From assembly GCA_012839865.1 (NCBI GenBank), contig DUMO01000005.1:1-61873 (forward strand): a DNA stretch of 61,873 bases. The letters run 5' to 3'. Numbering within the stretch: position 1 is the first letter of the stretch; every line of letters starts with the position of its first letter. The notes below the pieces were generated by a model. It was not told the origin of the DNA. It saw only the letters and a program-made list of their open reading frames with translations, and searched no databases. Positions 5,428 through 21,470 of this stretch are shown piece after piece. Source of the DNA: Clostridiaceae bacterium (GTDB lineage: Bacteria; Bacillota; Clostridia; CAYPLH01; DUMO01). The position numbers and the translations under genes were made by a program.

Positions 5428-5576
5428 ATAAATTGTTACACCTAACTGAAAAATACTCCTATTTAATTTTTAGTCTCAGTACAAATACTATACATAACGA
5501 TCAAAATTTATGATATGACTTGCTTGAACCACTACGATGAAAGTTTATATGAAATATAATGAGGAGGAGTCTTGTC

Positions 5577-7280
5577 TTGAAACAGAATCAATTCATTAAA
5601 AACCTGATTTCCCGAATGACTATTGAACAAAAAATTGGAGCCGTTGTAACCCTTGGATTTGCAGGAACTGTAATAAGACCTCATATTTATGAATATATAC
5701 ACAAATACCATTGCGGGGGCTTCAGGCTGTCGCCCAACAGCAGGGGTTTTGGCAGCTATGTGGACCCAAAGAGCGGTAAAACGGTGGTGAAGATAGAAAA
5801 TACCTCCGGTTATAAAGAAGGTGTTTCAGCACCTTTTCTGACCGGTTCACAATATAAGGAGATTCTTGACAAACTTCAGGAGGAAGCAATGAGCAGGCCT
5901 CTTGGAATACCGTTGCATTTTTCATCGGACCAGGAGGGTGGAAGCAGCGCAAATTTATATTTTGCAGACACCCATGTTTTCCCCAAGCCGATGGGAATAA
6001 GAGCATCGGGGGACAGCAGGATGGCATACGACGTTGCTTTTGCGGTGGCAAGGCAGTGCAGGGCAATCGGAGTTAACTGGATACATTCTCCCACCCTTGA
6101 TATCAACATAAACCCCGATAACCCCAGAACATATACCAGGGCTTATTCGGATAATGCAGAGGAAGTAATTGAGTATGCGGAGCAGGCTTGCCGGGGATTC
6201 AAAGACGGCAGGATTATAACAGCAGCAAAGCATTTTCCCGGAGCAGGGAGCTCAAGCAAGGACCCGCACTATAACTTATTGGAGATTGACACAGACAGGG
6301 ATACATTGCTGAACAGGGACCTTTTGCCATATAAAGTTTTGATTGAAAAAGGACTTCTGCCCTCCGTAATGGTATCTCACGGAATTTATACAGCTCTTGA
6401 CGAAAATGATGTGTCTACGGTATCGAAAAAAATAATAACCGGAATCTTAAGAGAGGAGTTTGGATTCGAGGGGGTTATAACAACAGACAGCATGACTATG
6501 GCAGGTGTAGCAGCAAGGTATGGAGTTGCAAAAGCTTGTGCATTGTCTCTTGCAGCAGGCTCAGACCTTGTGCTTATGAAAGCAGAAAATGAGCTGGTGG
6601 ATGAAACCTTTGCAACAATAAGAGAATTTGTGGAGCAGGGCAAGATAACCGAAAAGGAACTGGATGAGAAAGTCTACAGGGTTCTGAACTTAAAATATGA
6701 ATACGGTCTTTTCACCCAGGGCAACATATGGCATGAAACCTCAGAGGAGGTTGCAAAGGACGAGAAAATAATCAGTTTGTCCAGGCTGGCGGCCAGAAGA
6801 TCTGTTATTGCAGCCAGAAATAATAATGCATTCCCCCTGGATAAAGACAGTAAGTTTTTGGTAATTGAACAGATGAACGGTGCAGGAGCAAATGATGCTT
6901 ACTGGCATCCGGGGTGTCTTTACGAGAGTTGCTTAAAATACAGCAAGAATGCAAAATACCTGGAAACCGCCTATTCCTATGATTCTGAAGACAAAGAAAG
7001 AATACAGAAAATGATCCGGGATTTTGACACTGTTGTTATGACCAACTTCTACAGAAGGGGAAAGAGATCCAACACTGAATTTATAGAAGAATTGTTGAAT
7101 GACAAAACTAAAAAATTTATTTTGATTGCCAATACACCTTATAAGCTGACCGCACCTGATAACGCGGAAAATGTTATTGTCACTTTATCAACAGGTCCTG
7201 AGAACATGAGGGTTGTGGCAGGGGTATTGTTTGGCGGGATTGAGCCGGAGGGCGAGTGGCCGGTTAAATATCGGTTGTAA
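5577..7280 (+). CDS. GH3 glycoside hydrolase, NagZ-like (copy 1)
   Basis: This is a predicted cytoplasmic glycosidase (no signal peptide) of family GH3, closest in layout to two-domain beta-N-acetylglucosaminidases of the NagZ type. In the 567-residue product the TIM-barrel domain carries KHFPG followed by the Asp229-x-His231 pair (KDPHY) that matches the NagZ acid/base dyad. The nucleophile is Asp304 in VITTDSMTM. A Rossmann-like C-terminal domain fills about residues 385-567. The usual KHFPGHGD is changed to KHFPGAGS. I place the start at TTG 5577, because an upstream in-frame ATG at 5559 overlaps the ribosome site GGAGGAG (5563-5569), and this start aligns with that of copy 2. The substrate is probably an N-acetylhexosaminide, but a phosphorylase or another hexosidase is possible. 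Confidence 0.85.
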   Translation: MKQNQFIKNLISRMTIEQKIGAVVTLGFAGTVIRPHIYEYIHKYHCGGFRLSPNSRGFGSYVDPKSGKTVVKIENTSGYKEGVSAPFLTGSQYKEILDKLQEEAMSRPLGIPLHFSSDQEGGSSANLYFADTHVFPKPMGIRASGDSRMAYDVAFAVARQCRAIGVNWIHSPTLDININPDNPRTYTRAYSDNAEEVIEYAEQACRGFKDGRIITAAKHFPGAGSSSKDPHYNLLEIDTDRDTLLNRDLLPYKVLIEKGLLPSVMVSHGIYTALDENDVSTVSKKIITGILREEFGFEGVITTDSMTMAGVAARYGVAKACALSLAAGSDLVLMKAENELVDETFATIREFVEQGKITEKELDEKVYRVLNLKYEYGLFTQGNIWHETSEEVAKDEKIISLSRLAARRSVIAARNNNAFPLDKDSKFLVIEQMNGAGANDAYWHPGCLYESCLKYSKNAKYLETAYSYDSEDKERIQKMIRDFDTVVMTNFYRRGKRSNTEFIEELLNDKTKKFILIANTPYKLTAPDNAENVIVTLSTGPENMRVVAGVLFGGIEPEGEWPVKYRL

Positions 7281-7366
7281 ATCATTTGCCAGAAGCCGCA
7301 AAAAAGGTTAAATGACTGGTTTGCTGCATCCGGCATTATATTTTAATTATGATAGGAGTGTTGACT

Positions 7367-9076
7367 GTGCAGGAGAATAAATTTGTGAAGAACCTTGTTT
7401 CAAAAATGACTTTGGAACAAAAGGTGGGTGCGGTTTTGACCCTTGGATTTGCAGGCAATGTTATAAGGCCGCATATTTATGAATATATTGAAAAGTATCA
7501 CTGTGGCGGATTCAGGTTGAGTCCCAACAGCCGTACCTTTGGAAGTTATGTGGACCCTGAAACCGGCCATGTTGTCGTTAAACTGGGAAACATTGACGGA
7601 TACAAAAAAGGCGTTGAGCCGCCATATGTAACCGGAGCACAGTATAAGGAAGTACTTGACAAGCTCCAGAAGTGTGCAATGAACCGGCGGCTTGGAATAC
7701 CGCTGCATTTTTCAACAGACCAGGAAGGTGGAAGCAGTGCGGCAATCAGAACCGGTGGATATCAGTTGTTTCCCAAGCCCATGGGCTTAAGGGCAACTGG
7801 AGACAGTAAACTGGCTTATGAGGTAGCCAGGGCAATTGCCCGCCAAATGAAATCTGCAGGCATTAATTGGCTTCACTCACCGGTTCTTGATATAAATTCA
7901 AATCCTGACAATCCCAGTATAAATACCCGTGCCTATTCCGACCGGGTTGAAGAAGTGATTGAATATGCAAGGCAAACATGTATTGGTTTTAAGGAAGGAA
8001 AGCTTATTGCAGCAGCAAAACACTTCCCGGGGGATGGAGGTTCCGGTCGGGATGGGCACTATGGAATAACGGTTGTTCATTTTGACAAGGAAACAATTTT
8101 AAATAGAGAAATTCAACCATACAGGGTTTTGATAAAGGAAGGACTTCTGCCGTCAATTATGTCATGCCATGTGCTTTATCCGGCCCTGGATGAAGAATAT
8201 GTCGGAACATTGTCAAAGAGAATACTGACGGGAATACTGCGGGAGGAATTGGGTTTTGAAGGTGTTATAACCACTGACAGCATGACCATGGGGGCTATAG
8301 CCGTGAAATACAGTGTTCCGGTTGCCTGCGCCATGTCTCTTGCTGCAGGGGCGGACCTGGTATTGATGAAAGCTGAAAATGAACTGGTGGACCAAACCTT
8401 CAATACTATTTTAAGATATGTGGAGGAAGGCAAACTGCCTGAGAAGGAGCTTGACCAAAAGGTTTACAGGGCGCTGAAAATGAAATATGATTACGGATTG
8501 TTCACAAACGGAAATCTGTATCATGAAACACCGGAGGAAGTTGCCAAAGATGAAAAAATAACATTGCTTTCGAAGATTGTTGCCCAAAAATCGGTATTGG
8601 TTGCAAGAAACAGGAGCAATCTCCTTCCTTTGCCGGAGAATGAAAAGATATTGGTTATTGAGCAAATGAATACCGGGGCAAATGATGCTTACTGGCACCA
8701 TGGAATTCTTTACGAGAACTGCCTGAAATACAATAAAAAAGTTTCATATCTTGAAACTTCATACTCTTATGATGAAGAAGACAAGGAAAGAATTAAAAAG
8801 GCTGTCTCACAGAACGACACAATTGTTATAACAAATTTTTATAAGCGCGGTACCAAAAGCAATACCAGGTTTGTTGAGGAAATATTGAAAGACAAAAGCA
8901 AAAAGTTTGTTTTAATAGCCAATACACCTTACAAGCTGAATATTCCCGATGAAGCCGATAATGTTATTGTCAGTTTTGCAACAACTCCCTGCAATATGGA
9001 AGTTGTGGCAGGTGTGCTTTTTGGGAAAATCCAGCCTGAAGGCGAATGGCCGGTGCAGTATTGGCCGGGGGACTGA
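7367..9076 (+). CDS. GH3 glycoside hydrolase, NagZ-like (copy 2, tandem paralogue)
   Basis: The 569-residue product is homologous to the preceding GH3 protein along its entire length, including the N-terminus (MQENKFVKNLVS versus MKQNQFIKNLIS), so the pair arose by tandem duplication. The acid/base dyad Asp229-x-His231 (RDGHY) and the nucleophile Asp304 (ITTDSMTM) sit at the same positions. The binding motif again deviates, here KHFPGDGG. GTG 7367 is chosen as start because AGGAG at 7354-7358 precedes it by 8 bases; ATG 7349 lies upstream of that site. The different residues after KHFPG suggest the paralogues have diverged in substrate preference. No signal peptide is present, so it acts in the cytoplasm on imported material. 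Confidence 0.85.
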   Translation: MQENKFVKNLVSKMTLEQKVGAVLTLGFAGNVIRPHIYEYIEKYHCGGFRLSPNSRTFGSYVDPETGHVVVKLGNIDGYKKGVEPPYVTGAQYKEVLDKLQKCAMNRRLGIPLHFSTDQEGGSSAAIRTGGYQLFPKPMGLRATGDSKLAYEVARAIARQMKSAGINWLHSPVLDINSNPDNPSINTRAYSDRVEEVIEYARQTCIGFKEGKLIAAAKHFPGDGGSGRDGHYGITVVHFDKETILNREIQPYRVLIKEGLLPSIMSCHVLYPALDEEYVGTLSKRILTGILREELGFEGVITTDSMTMGAIAVKYSVPVACAMSLAAGADLVLMKAENELVDQTFNTILRYVEEGKLPEKELDQKVYRALKMKYDYGLFTNGNLYHETPEEVAKDEKITLLSKIVAQKSVLVARNRSNLLPLPENEKILVIEQMNTGANDAYWHHGILYENCLKYNKKVSYLETSYSYDEEDKERIKKAVSQNDTIVITNFYKRGTKSNTRFVEEILKDKSKKFVLIANTPYKLNIPDEADNVIVSFATTPCNMEVVAGVLFGKIQPEGEWPVQYWPGD

Positions 9077-15430: not shown

Positions 15431-16273
15431 ATGAGACGTGGTTTTTGTATCCTTTTTCTGTTGCTATTGCCGATTTGCATGCCTGCTTGTTCAATTTCAA
15501 GAGCCAGTGCGGGCTCAGGCCTGACGCAATGCCATTTTCGGAAAAGCTATCCGGTGGACGAACCAAAAGAACTTAGAATAAGCAGCTTTGGAGGGAAGGT
15601 GGAAGCTTATTCATGGAGTAAGAATGAGGTGTGGATTGAGGTGACCGGAACAGTAAATTCAAGTGAAAAGGAGCTGAAGGAGGAGCTCTTAAGCAATATC
15701 AGAATCAATGAAGAAGAAAGCTCAAAAAACCTTTGCATTGACATAGCATACTACGGCTCCCCGAAGTACGGAAAAAAGTGCAGCGCAAATGTAGTATTGT
15801 ATCTTCCCAGGGAGTGGAGGCACTTTTCCATTAAGCTTGACAGGGGGGAACTTAATCTTATAGATGATTTCAGAGGTGTTATGAATGCAGAATTGGGTAC
15901 GGTGGATGTAAATATCAGAAGCTTTTTTGGCTTGCTGGATATCAGGAATGACAGAGGGAATGTCTGTATATCAAATGGCAAGTTAAAAACAGGTTCCCGA
16001 ATCTGTTGCAACACCGGAAATGTTAGTATTAAATCAGACCTGGAAGAAAGAGGAAACTACGAAATTGGAACAGGTTTTGGAGACATCAGGCTTCTTTTTC
16101 CTTACGGCAAGTTTTTGGAAATCAACAGCATCGGCAACATGATTAAGAATGAGTTCGCACTTGCTGATAATGTTGCAACATCTCACAACCACTCCTCATC
16201 CGGCAACCCGGTGCAAGTTAATATCAGGAGTTCTGCCGGCAGTATCAGCATTGAAAAATATGCTAAGAGATAA
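15431..16273 (+). CDS. DUF4097-like beta-rich lipoprotein
   Basis: The 280-residue product starts with a lipoprotein signal peptide (ILFLLLLPICMPAC, lipobox Cys20). It is followed by a repetitive beta-strand region with short repeats of the type G-x-V-x-I/V, as in the putative adhesin DUF4097/DUF4098 family (RGELNLIDDFRG, LGTVDVNIRSFFG, RGNVCISNGKL, TGNVSIKSDLE). Such proteins are predicted beta-helices or beta-solenoids on the outer face of the membrane. AAAGGGTGA precedes the ATG. It appears monocistronic between lipA and prs. The exact role is unknown. Confidence 0.75.
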   Translation: MRRGFCILFLLLLPICMPACSISRASAGSGLTQCHFRKSYPVDEPKELRISSFGGKVEAYSWSKNEVWIEVTGTVNSSEKELKEELLSNIRINEEESSKNLCIDIAYYGSPKYGKKCSANVVLYLPREWRHFSIKLDRGELNLIDDFRGVMNAELGTVDVNIRSFFGLLDIRNDRGNVCISNGKLKTGSRICCNTGNVSIKSDLEERGNYEIGTGFGDIRLLFPYGKFLEINSIGNMIKNEFALADNVATSHNHSSSGNPVQVNIRSSAGSISIEKYAKR

Positions 16274-17756: not shown

Positions 17757-18710
17757 TTAGGAAACATACCCGTAAAATTTAAGGATTTTTTCTTCTTCAT
17801 CAGTCTGATGTGCGATATCGAGATCTTTCAGCCGGATAAAGGTTGCTGCTACCAGCTTGTCAACCCAGCCGGATTTTAAAAGCCTGCTGCAACATTTGAA
17901 TGTCAGGTTGTTGTACACCGAATTCTCACTGCACTGGTAGAGAAACAACCATAGGCTTGAAGGTGGGGGGAAGATGCCAAGACTGTCCATGGAATCAAGA
18001 ATGGACAGGGCTTTTTCCAGTTTTCCGCTTTTTAAAGCTGATAAAAGGATGATATTGGTATAATCCGCTGTACAGTCCTTTGCATCCGGCAGTTTAGCAA
18101 ATTTACCCGCAACAGCTTCATTCTTCAAAACTGCACTGTCAGTTGAAGACAGTGCTTTAATCAATGCCCATCTCATATTGTCATCAAGCCCGTCCAGTAC
18201 AACACACTTTTTGAACAATTCGACTGCGGTGGAATCTTCCTGATGATTATGGAGGCAATAAATGCAAAACAAAAGATTAAGAACAGGATTGTCCGGTTGT
18301 TTTTTCAGAATCCTTTTTGCCGAGTTTATGAAATAGTTTAGAAAAACCCTTGACACCAAACTTTGACGGGCAGGGTCCAGTTTGCTGCTGTTGAACTGGC
18401 TGCTTACGATTTCTGCAATTTCCTTCTTGTAAATATTCCGCATGTTAATGCTTCTTTTATATTTGCTGCACAGGTAAACAGCCTTGATATATTTACCCTT
18501 CAGAATCAATATTTCAATGAGGCCCAACTTGGCACGGGTATAGTACCTGTCCAGTTCCAATGCCTTTTTCATATGGCTTTCCGCCTCTTTTAAATTGCTG
18601 TTCTGCATATGCAGCTTTCCGAGGCAGTAATAACCGTAGGGCTTCTCGGGGTTGTTCTTTACATAGTTTTCATATTTTAAAATTCTTATATCAGTCTTGA
18701 CAGATTCCAT
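17757..18710 (-). CDS. TPR-repeat protein, third gene of the ZorAB-like module
   Basis: The 317-residue product has no signal peptide. N-terminal tetratricopeptide repeats are visible, for example KPYGYYCLGKLHMQNSNLKEAESHMKKALEL and the next helix pair TRAKLGLIEILILKGKYIKAV. The remainder is all-helical and repeat-like (LNLLFCIYCLHNHQEDSTAVELFKK). It lies 71 bases downstream of the ZorB/MotB-like gene on the same strand with GGAG before its ATG, so it is probably co-transcribed. A cytoplasmic scaffold or docking partner for the motor complex is an inference from position and fold only. Confidence 0.75.
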   Translation of the reverse strand: MESVKTDIRILKYENYVKNNPEKPYGYYCLGKLHMQNSNLKEAESHMKKALELDRYYTRAKLGLIEILILKGKYIKAVYLCSKYKRSINMRNIYKKEIAEIVSSQFNSSKLDPARQSLVSRVFLNYFINSAKRILKKQPDNPVLNLLFCIYCLHNHQEDSTAVELFKKCVVLDGLDDNMRWALIKALSSTDSAVLKNEAVAGKFAKLPDAKDCTADYTNIILLSALKSGKLEKALSILDSMDSLGIFPPPSSLWLFLYQCSENSVYNNLTFKCCSRLLKSGWVDKLVAATFIRLKDLDIAHQTDEEEKILKFYGYVS

Positions 18711-18781
18711 GTTATACTCCGCTTTGGATATTTATTTATAAAACAAACCGGTTGCTTCCTTCATGCTTTTATTACCTGAAC

Positions 18782-19801
18782 CTAGTTGGCAATTTCAGTT
18801 TCATCGAGATAGTCATTTATAATGCTTTGTATGTTGGAGTCCTTGATAACAACCGATATTTCTATTCTCCTGTTTTGCTGCCGCCCTGATTCGGTATCGT
18901 TGGATGCAATGGGGCGAAACTCTGAGTAACCGCTTGCAGCAAAATACTCACCATATTTATTTTCCAAACTCGGATTGAATTCCATAAGCTTGTTTACCAC
19001 ATTATAAGCTCTTTCCGCTGAAAGCTTGCGGTTGCTTTCCGGATCGCCAATTGAGTCTGTATGGCCTTCTATTACTATTGCATCAATATAATTTTTTACC
19101 TCGTTATCATCCAGCAGCTCTTCAAAGGCAAGGGATAACTGAAGAAGCAGCGGGAAGCCCACAGGTTTTATTTCAGCCTTTGCAAAGTCGAAAAACAGGC
19201 TTTCATTTATAATTATGTTTGCATTATCACCTATTGAAACAAGGGGTTCACCTTTATCATTCGAGTTGCCGATCTTTTCCTCTATGGATTTTTTGACTTT
19301 CTCAAGAACACTAATCCTGAGCAGCGCAATATCCTGAAGCTTCAAGCGAAGTTTTTCAAGTTCCGCATTACTGGCTGCAATTATCTTTTTCTGATTCTCC
19401 AATTGTTCAAGAGTAATGGCAATAAGAGTTTCCTTGTTTGCCAGTTCTGTTTCTTTAGTCAGAATTATCTGGTTCTGTTTTTCAATTTCATCACTGAGCA
19501 GTATCAGTTGAAGCTTGCTTTCTTCCAATTGAGCCTTGGTTTCCTCAATATCCACCTCAAGAAGGCGTAGTTGTTTTTCCGCTTCCTCAATTTCCAGGTT
19601 TTTTGCATCAAGTGTCAATTGTGCCTGTTCAAGGTTCAATTTTGCTGTTTCGAGGTTTTTCCCGGTTAACAGGTTTTGAATATATGTTAGCAGCATAATA
19701 AAAAACAAAATTAATACTATAGTAGATATTACGTCGGTAAAGGAAGGCCAGAAGTTTTCCGTACCGCTTAAGTTTCTGAATCTTCGCGTTCTCACCTTCA
19801 T
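18782..19801 (-). CDS. MotB/ZorB-like stator protein with long coiled coil and OmpA domain
   Basis: The 339-residue product is built like MotB/ZorB. It has a short cytoplasmic N-terminus, one membrane helix (about 18-42) carrying Asp23 in WPSFTDVIS at the position of the proton-binding Asp of MotB-type stators, and a C-terminal OmpA-like peptidoglycan-binding domain (about 195-320) with EGHTDS, NRKLSAERA and RQQNRRIEI. A coiled coil of about 125 residues (50-175) separates membrane and OmpA domains and is much longer than in flagellar MotB. It is the partner of the upstream channel-like gene. Flagellar MotB is less likely because no motility gene is nearby and the channel partner has a ZorA-like tail. 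Confidence 0.85.
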   Translation of the reverse strand: MKVRTRRFRNLSGTENFWPSFTDVISTIVLILFFIMLLTYIQNLLTGKNLETAKLNLEQAQLTLDAKNLEIEEAEKQLRLLEVDIEETKAQLEESKLQLILLSDEIEKQNQIILTKETELANKETLIAITLEQLENQKKIIAASNAELEKLRLKLQDIALLRISVLEKVKKSIEEKIGNSNDKGEPLVSIGDNANIIINESLFFDFAKAEIKPVGFPLLLQLSLAFEELLDDNEVKNYIDAIVIEGHTDSIGDPESNRKLSAERAYNVVNKLMEFNPSLENKYGEYFAASGYSEFRPIASNDTESGRQQNRRIEISVVIKDSNIQSIINDYLDETEIAN

Positions 19802-19875
19802 TTGACAAACACCCCGTTTCCGTCTGTATATTGAGGTTTAAATGATTACTTTCCTCACGCCGCTAATGTGAATCC

Positions 19876-19906
19876 AGGCTTGAAAAAAGCAGGCTTAATC
19901 AAGCCT
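19876..19906 (-). terminator. Intra-operon terminator with competing antiterminator pairing
   Basis: On the minus-strand transcript, 11 bases after the channel gene stop, AGGCUU pairs with AAGCCU (19906-19901 with 19896-19891) and is followed by GCUUUUUU: a standard terminator. The same 5' arm can instead pair over 8 bases (AGGCUUGA, 19906-19899) with UCAAGCCU beyond the U-tract (19883-19876). The two structures exclude each other, so expression of the stator and TPR genes may be attenuated relative to the channel gene. Confidence 0.7.
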
Positions 19907-19916
19907 TTCCCAGGGA

Positions 19917-21368
19917 TTACAGATCCTTTTGAATTAATTTGATTATTTCATTCATTTTATTGTCAACCCTGGCGGATGCAGTCTCACTGTATGTCAGAAA
20001 CTGATCCGGGAGTGATGATATAGTCCGTGACATTATTTTTTCATTTTCTCCGAAGGACTCCAATATGTCATATATTTCTTTAAGTATTGCATTAATCTCC
20101 CTTGACAACTCCTGAGAAACGGTTTTAACCGTATCTGACAGGCTCCGGTCGAAAGATTTGGAAACTTGTTCGCCAAGCAGGCTGATTTCCTTGCTTATTC
20201 CGGCCATGAGACTTGTGAAGTTTTCCCGGTATTTTTGCATGTCCCCTTCACGCTGGGACATTTCGTCCTTCAACATCTGTCCAAATTCCTTTATGCTCAC
20301 TGTTGCTTCCCTGACCTTGCCAACAAGGGTCTCCATGTCCTCCACAACTTTTTTATTTTGGGCATTTAATTCGTTTACTGCAATCTGGACATCTTTTGAG
20401 AAGGCTTCCATTGAGTTGAAATTGTCAAGCAGTATTTTGGATGAATTCTTAAGGGCTTCGGTTACCTTTATAAAGCTTACATCCATTATTTCAATATTGT
20501 TTCGCAAATTTACATTAAATTCGGTGAAATCTCTTATGTTTTCGGCAAAATTCTTCAGCGAACGGTCGAATTTCTCAACGGTATTATCCAGAGCTTTTGA
20601 AGACAGGGTTACTTCCATGACTACATTCTTAAGTTTTTCGCCTAAGGAATCAGTCATTGCCACCAGGGAATTTTCGATTTTCTTGCCAAACTCTGTGAAA
20701 GTGTCCCTTAAAATTCTGTTCCTAACTTCGTATTCCGATTCCTTATCCCTGGAGATAATCAAAGAAACCGTATTATCCAGGTATTCTTCAATATGTACCA
20801 TTAAATTTTCCCGGCATTCTTCTACATTAAAAATTACGTTCAGCACTGTTAATATTATGGAGAAGGCAATTCCAAAAAGGCTGGTTGTAAATGCCGTAGA
20901 CATTCCTCTTAAGGATGTCAGAAGACTTACCCCCAGGGTTCTGAACATTTCTATTATTTGGTCACTGTCAATTCCCATCATCATTGAAATTAACTCGCCA
21001 ACTGCCAGGGTCAGACCGACAAATGTACCAAGAAGTCCAAGGGCTATAAGGGTTGATATGGAATTTCTCAAGAATCTTTCCGCAACCTGCATTGGACCAA
21101 GGGATGTCTCAAAATGCTTTTCAATTATTGCCTGCGTATTTACTTCCCTGCTGCCGAGAGCAGTGCTCTCATAATCACTGACTATATCATTTAAAAAATC
21201 TGATCTGAACTTTCCGCCCCGCGGCCTTTCCAAATCTGCCAGTATTTTTTTGTATTGGCTTCTGAGTATGAAAATGGCTGTTACGGCAATTATAAATACG
21301 GCAGTCGTAATAAACAGGATAATATAAGCTATTGGATGAAGATTGCTGAAAGCGTATTGAAAAGTCAT
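19917..21368 (-). CDS. MotA/TolQ/ExbB-type proton channel protein, ZorA-like with long helical tail
   Basis: The 483-residue product has membrane helices at about 12-35, 104-131 and 157-181. The MotA/TolQ/ExbB signature is around ISTLIALGLLGTFVGLTLAV and GMSTAFTTSLFGIAFSI. About 300 residues of helical, coiled-coil-prone sequence follow (KIENSLVAMTDSLGEKLK and onward), projecting into the cytoplasm. A long cytoplasmic tail is the hallmark of ZorA rather than MotA or ExbB. The start is ATG 21368, preceded by AAGGAG; an upstream ATG at 21386 overlaps that site. Together with the downstream Asp-containing stator it should form an ion-driven membrane motor. No ZorC, ZorD or ZorE is adjacent. Confidence 0.83.
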   Translation of the reverse strand: MTFQYAFSNLHPIAYIILFITTAVFIIAVTAIFILRSQYKKILADLERPRGGKFRSDFLNDIVSDYESTALGSREVNTQAIIEKHFETSLGPMQVAERFLRNSISTLIALGLLGTFVGLTLAVGELISMMMGIDSDQIIEMFRTLGVSLLTSLRGMSTAFTTSLFGIAFSIILTVLNVIFNVEECRENLMVHIEEYLDNTVSLIISRDKESEYEVRNRILRDTFTEFGKKIENSLVAMTDSLGEKLKNVVMEVTLSSKALDNTVEKFDRSLKNFAENIRDFTEFNVNLRNNIEIMDVSFIKVTEALKNSSKILLDNFNSMEAFSKDVQIAVNELNAQNKKVVEDMETLVGKVREATVSIKEFGQMLKDEMSQREGDMQKYRENFTSLMAGISKEISLLGEQVSKSFDRSLSDTVKTVSQELSREINAILKEIYDILESFGENEKIMSRTISSLPDQFLTYSETASARVDNKMNEIIKLIQKDL

Positions 21369-21470
21369 TTGATCCACTCCTTGCATAGAGAAGCATACAG
21401 CCTCTTAATTTTATCTTTCATATTTTACTTAGATTCATTAAAACTGTTTTTTGTTCCTAAGATTTTCCTG

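Follow-up and report, generated by a model that had tools for sequence, protein, structure and literature searches.

The ZA-ZB-TPR locus

The window, meaning the whole stretch of 61,873 nucleotides analysed here, covers positions 1 to 61,873 of contig DUMO01000005.1 from a Clostridiaceae bacterium (assembly GCA_012839865.1). At 17757-21368 on its minus strand we recognized three co-directional open reading frames (ORFs), in the order ZA-ZB-TPR, for a ZorA-like channel subunit, a ZorB/MotB-like subunit and a tetratricopeptide repeat (TPR) protein. An earlier note, made from the sequence alone, had placed three minus-strand genes here and read them as a ZorA/ZorB-like membrane motor with a TPR partner. 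All three ORFs are conserved across dozens of genomes, and the ratio of nonsynonymous to synonymous substitution rates (dN/dS) was well under 1 in homologous pairs, which excludes chance ORFs. The longest ORF of ZA is 19917-21386 (489 aa), but the ATG at 21368, behind a Shine-Dalgarno sequence (AAGGAG, 21382-21377), makes a better start and agrees with the coordinate in the earlier note. Residue numbers of ZA follow the 489-aa numbering, from 21386. The features are:

19917..21368, minus strand: ZA, ZorA-like channel subunit of the MotA/TolQ/ExbB type with a helical cytoplasmic tail of ~280 residues
20829..21335, minus strand: channel domain of ZA (residues 18-186); T121 and S169, in its two pore-type helices, are invariant
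20091..20366, minus strand: ZA tail segment, residues 341-432, found in 37/38 homologues accompanied by TPR and in 0/19 without TPR
19947..20051, minus strand: ZA C-terminal tip motif, residues ~446-480, with P460, Q462 and Y466 invariant in the long forms
18782..19801, minus strand: ZB, 339 aa, ZorB/MotB-like subunit with a single transmembrane helix, a coiled coil and an OmpA peptidoglycan-binding domain
19733..19735, minus strand: codon of ZB Asp23, invariant, the predicted ion-accepting residue, equivalent to ZorB D24/D21 (role of the ZorB residue from PMC11890865)
19271..19660, minus strand: predicted coiled coil of ZB, residues 48-177, free of Pro and Gly
18869..19192, minus strand: OmpA-like domain of ZB, residues 204-311
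17757..18710, minus strand: TPR protein, 317 aa, alpha-helical superhelix

A short terminator-like hairpin lies between ZA and ZB (19891-19906, minus strand) and could lower ZB relative to ZA. The scan for promoters and terminators gave results at or near chance level, with terminator-like sites no commoner than in shuffled sequences.

Protein identity

The best profile matches of ZA were to ZorA (PADLOC ZorA, 9e-14, spanning residues ~95-181, and NCBIfam ZorA_2). Its scores were far under the curated cut-offs (45.2 bits against 100 for ZorA_2, 23.3 against 190 for ZorA_1) and also sub-threshold for Pfam MotA_ExbB (13.6 bits, cut-off 22.9). ZorA proteins were the only channel proteins matched by the ZA profile among solved structures. 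Apolipoproteins and designed coiled coils were matched too, and were judged low-complexity helix matches. In the AlphaFold model the channel domain is helical, and so is the whole of the ~280-residue tail behind it. This tail, modelled with low confidence and as a monomer, was compared with the long bundled ZorA tail of Zorya; the earlier note had put the ZA tail at ~300 residues. Foldseek placed type I ZorA first and TolQ/ExbB at ranks 2-9, with modest scores. The invariant T121 and S169 are the Ser/Thr residues expected in the A-subunit pore helices of 5:2 ion-driven motors.

ZB carries an OmpA domain (Pfam, 1.3e-11) and matched PADLOC ZorB with 1.2e-26; ZorB was also its top match among solved structures. 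Asp23 was invariant in 26 homologues, within W18-P19-x-F21-x-D23, as expected of the membrane Asp in B subunits of 5:2 motors. Invariant residues of the OmpA-like region are N257, L260, S261, R264, R311 and R312, the last just past the Pfam match. The long stator coiled coil noticed earlier (~125 residues) is real in the window, at ~130 residues, but its length is not a fixed trait: the uninterrupted Pro/Gly-free stretch varied from 45 to 144 residues among the nine homologues checked.

Several TPR models matched the TPR protein, and AlphaFold predicted an alpha-helical superhelix over its full length (mean predicted local distance difference test score, pLDDT, 92.7). Invariant residues are R180, P208, W254 and G281-W282. 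Foldseek returned generic TPR superhelices only, profile searches found no nuclease or helicase domain, and a transmembrane helix or signal peptide was not apparent.

Comparison with known motors

By profile, sequence and Foldseek, the closest relatives are the ZorAB motors of Zorya types I-III (Shewanella ANA-3 ZorAB, PDB 8vvn; PDB 8qyd), as the earlier note had suggested from their layout. Shared with them are the Asp of ZB in a W-x-S-F-x-D motif, the OmpA peptidoglycan domain, a long tail of the A subunit, predicted to be helical in ZA, and the adjacency of the A and B genes. Unlike in Zorya, a TPR protein stands in place of a DNA-destroying effector, with no adjacent ZorC, ZorD or ZorE, the distribution is vertical and not tied to islands, and tail and TPR protein survive without the motor. 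A cytoplasmic beta-sheet in the A subunit has been reported as Zorya-specific (PMC12505986). Such a sheet is not predicted in ZA, whose single-chain AlphaFold model has no strand of three or more residues and only isolated bridges at about positions 56 and 59. The pair thus belongs, as a ZorAB-like member, to the superfamily of ion-driven motors, but it is not Zorya, since effector genes, curated score, cytoplasmic beta-sheet and island context all differ from those of Zorya.

With the flagellar stators MotAB/MotPS the pair shares a channel and an OmpA-anchored stator with a membrane Asp; it differs in the ~280-residue tail, the lack of a MotA family match for ZA and the absence of flagellar genes near the locus in the window. 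The channel fold of ZA also resembles TolQR/ExbBD. However, ZB has an OmpA domain, whereas the B subunits of generic ion transporters were described without one in a survey (PMC12505986). The hosts found here are also without detectable Omp85, and TolA/TonB was not seen in the cassette. The TPR protein shares its superhelix with generic TPR adaptors (PilF/PilW, LapB, the TPR of OGT, MamA). Unlike these, it has no transmembrane anchor, catalytic domain or specific family match, and it is confined here to genomes with the ZA tail.

Distribution of the cassette

ZA relatives were found in 51 of 391 sampled genomes of the class Clostridia. With the profile of the TPR family, 29 of the 391 genomes gave a match; all 29 were ZA-positive, while none of the 340 ZA-negative genomes had the TPR protein. 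The earlier note had named missing linkage as grounds for refuting its reading, and the strict linkage found here is the opposite outcome. In a 398-genome draw of the phylum, the TPR family was found only in the window's own genome. The three genes are adjacent in about 30 loci, and their order recurs in families f1, f7, f12, f21, f39 and f53, with frequent start-stop overlaps between ZB and TPR and with neighbours that are unrelated from family to family. In f23 (locus L070) the same order occurs in a diverged form. ZA-ZB-TPR is a stand-alone cassette across Clostridia. We did not find a clostridial MotA/ExbB-OmpA-TPR cassette described in the open-access literature searched. A genome search with the single ZA sequence gave one locus only (L005), apparently on the same contig as that of genome G119.

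The tail segment and the TPR protein change together

The length of ZA differed with the presence of TPR: 289-392 residues in homologues without it, and 481-532 in those with TPR and a full motor. A profile of residues 340-432 of the window's ZA separated 37 loci with both segment and TPR from 19 with neither, with one exception. In a tree of the ZA channel and ZB, the TPR-less proteins did not form one clade (approximately unbiased test, p=0.004). The TPR-less genera g7 and g44 of family f7 nest within an f7 clade with TPR-bearing genera (support 100/99.9). Their loci occupy the same chromosomal site as the three-gene loci of genus g113, beside the same clusters of conserved genes (c10, c14, c15, c21 and c22), and there the tail segment and TPR are absent together while the motor is retained. 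Segment and TPR have thus undergone at least two joint changes. The C-terminal tip motif was recognizable both in motor-less homologues and in the f7 proteins lacking TPR, so it is not the TPR-specific part of the tail.

Another operon setting was seen in family f14 (L071 and L072). Here a short ZA and ZB, a two-gene motor, are followed by a conserved 582-aa gene in the same direction and by further conserved genes.

Loss of the motor in family f53

The ZA tail was found in 14/14 genomes of family f53, and ZB was missing at the locus in 6/14. In all six ZB-less loci the TPR gene directly follows the ZA relative. L048 and L077 still have the channel in altered form; L076 and the three g74 genomes have lost the channel, with a short membrane-anchored N-terminus in its place. 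The TPR tree requires three separate motor losses, a single clade being rejected (p=2e-7). In g74 the TPR-linked tail segment is tandemly triplicated, in copies of ~84 residues, behind one N-terminal membrane helix and with no motor. These motor-less ZA relatives are:

L068:5502-7019, motor-less ZA relative of the g74 type with triplicated segment
L069:9009-10436, the same type
L075:9314-10765, the same type

Motor-less tails and TPR proteins are under purifying selection (dN/dS 0.08-0.19, with dS near saturation in most comparisons). In the ZB-less pairs L048/L077 and L077/L039, dN/dS was 0.26-0.30 for the channel against 0.09-0.11 for the tail. Because several lineages lost the motor and kept tail and TPR, these two appear to be a module with its own job, and to judge from the sequences the motor and the tail with TPR look like separable halves.

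In the ZB-less L077 (10411-11384) the TPR gene is split into two overlapping ORFs of 258 and 65 aa, by a frameshift or an assembly error.

The three independent motor losses with a kept and constrained tail and TPR protein, together with the triplicated segment in motor-less proteins, would fit a membrane-tethered scaffold of tail and TPR as the core of the system, serving for example division, wall synthesis or secretion, with the motor only an anchor or a dispensable regulator. Nevertheless, the motor persists in most TPR-positive lineages, and its key residues are invariant there. The f7 genera g7 and g44 kept it with neither segment nor TPR, so the motor is also valuable alone, and we consider the scaffold explanation unlikely.

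Inheritance and genomic context

Within families the genes are near-universal: 11/11 genomes in f39 and 14/14 in f53. In f7 they were found in all genomes of the four long-ZA genera (11/11), in 5/5 of g44 and 6/14 of g7, both with the short form, and in 0/2 of g226. The neighbours of the cassette loci are mostly metabolic or housekeeping genes; in the window prs lies downstream and dinB upstream (divergent), so that the housekeeping genes named in the earlier note do flank the three genes. As that note had also observed, no ZorC, ZorD or ZorE adjoins the cassette in the window, and none turned up when the neighbours of related loci were scanned. PADLOC, run on 88 neighbours from 12 loci, produced isolated helicase-like or single scattered matches, none named Zor in the 25 families shown. 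A search for EH_Signature (ZorC) in 37 genomes was silent, as was its control. Plasmids gave no match to ZA and, for ZB, a single short and weak one in the OmpA region; no relative was found on viral contigs. A mobile defence element was rejected on the lack of a plasmid match to ZA and of viral relatives. The cassette is chromosomally (vertically) inherited in Clostridia, and its distribution is the behaviour of a core physiological gene set, not of a defence island.

These results bear on whether the cassette could be an anti-phage system, a type of Zorya with the TPR protein as its effector, or as an adaptor for one, instead of ZorC/D/E. ZorAB is the nearest motor relative, the long ZA tail and OmpA-anchored ZB are shared, and Zorya is modular in its effectors (PMC11890865). 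Yet the TPR protein has no nuclease or helicase domain, the genes are near-universal in families at a fixed chromosomal position, and the neighbours are housekeeping genes with few, scattered PADLOC matches. Viral copies and plasmid matches to ZA are lacking as well. Moreover, the motor was lost while tail and TPR were kept, whereas Zorya needs ZorB and ion flow (PMC11890865). We therefore regard a defence role of this kind as quite improbable. The earlier note had left defence and envelope physiology side by side; of the two, physiology fits better with the prevalence, the synteny and the absence from mobile elements.

In one locus (L094:8513-14371) another ZorAB-like pair (555 and 275 aa) overlaps a 1133-aa gene without PADLOC match, and could be one more system of the ZorAB type, whose partner is large and of another kind.

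A flagellar service, for instance as an alternative stator, would agree with membership of the MotA/MotB superfamily and with the presence of FliG in 27/37 TPR-positive genomes. The window's genome, however, has a separate flagellar MotA/MotB pair, and in profile and fold comparisons ZorAB and TolQ/ExbB match better than MotA. Fairly complete cassette genomes (G038, G048 and G208) are without detectable FliG, and flagellar genes were absent from the best-represented neighbour families. On these matches, the separate MotAB pair and the hosts without FliG, a flagellar stator was rejected, and any flagellar service appears very improbable indeed. This agrees with the earlier note, in which a distinct ion-driven envelope machine was suggested.

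Omp85/BamA was lacking in 30 cassette genomes, while seven control genomes were positive, so ZB should face a monoderm wall.

Proposed function

We consider it probable that the cassette encodes one inherited envelope machine of Clostridia, a ZorAB-type wall-anchored motor or sensor whose tail docks a TPR output protein, and which serves envelope physiology and not defence. ZA and ZB would form an ion-conducting motor, presumably of 5 ZA and 2 ZB. The ZB axle may grip the peptidoglycan of the monoderm wall, ion flow past Asp23 would make the ZA ring turn or switch with respect to the wall, and the tail bundle could transmit this movement into the cytoplasm. These steps are modelled on ZorAB, which requires the equivalent parts, namely peptidoglycan binding by ZorB, the membrane Asp and the ZorA tail (PMC11890865). 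The TPR protein would dock on this tail, with residues 341-432 or their surroundings as the likeliest site, and act as an adaptor that relays the tail's state to a cytoplasmic client encoded elsewhere. The role of the machine may be sensing of the wall state or force output.

Several observations weigh against this proposal or narrow it. The diverged L070 has TPR without a detectable tail segment, and the tip motif is kept in TPR-less f7 proteins, so that part of the tail is not specific to TPR. The tail model is of low confidence and monomeric. For the pair L048/L039 the contrast between channel and tail was weaker (dN/dS 0.17 against 0.11), and the near-saturated dS affects most motor-less comparisons. 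Absence of ZB in ZB-less genomes (e.g., G347) means absence at the locus, and a copy elsewhere is possible. Information could also run from TPR to motor instead of from motor to TPR.

A broader idea, possible but doubtful at present, is a machine of a new class, serving signalling or force output. Its conserved unit would be the membrane-tethered coiled-coil tail with the TPR adaptor. The wall-reading ZorAB-type motor would drive or gate this unit in most lineages, would have been repeatedly uncoupled from it, and would count as one input among several that a cytoplasmic TPR hub can use interchangeably.

The results suggest that motors of the ZorAB type also occur outside phage defence, in a vertically inherited branch of monoderm bacteria that is paired with a TPR protein. 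The natural deletion series, with motors lacking segment and TPR on one side and tails with TPR lacking the motor on the other, separates input from output. Through it the tail's role can be tested directly, which could reveal how a wall-anchored ion motor reports to the cytoplasm.

Other genes in the window

Lipoyl genes also lie near the cassette, and between lipA and prs, at 15431-16273, we found a predicted secreted lipoprotein-like protein. Further away, at 5559-9076, there are two tandem, closely similar genes resembling glycoside hydrolase family 3.

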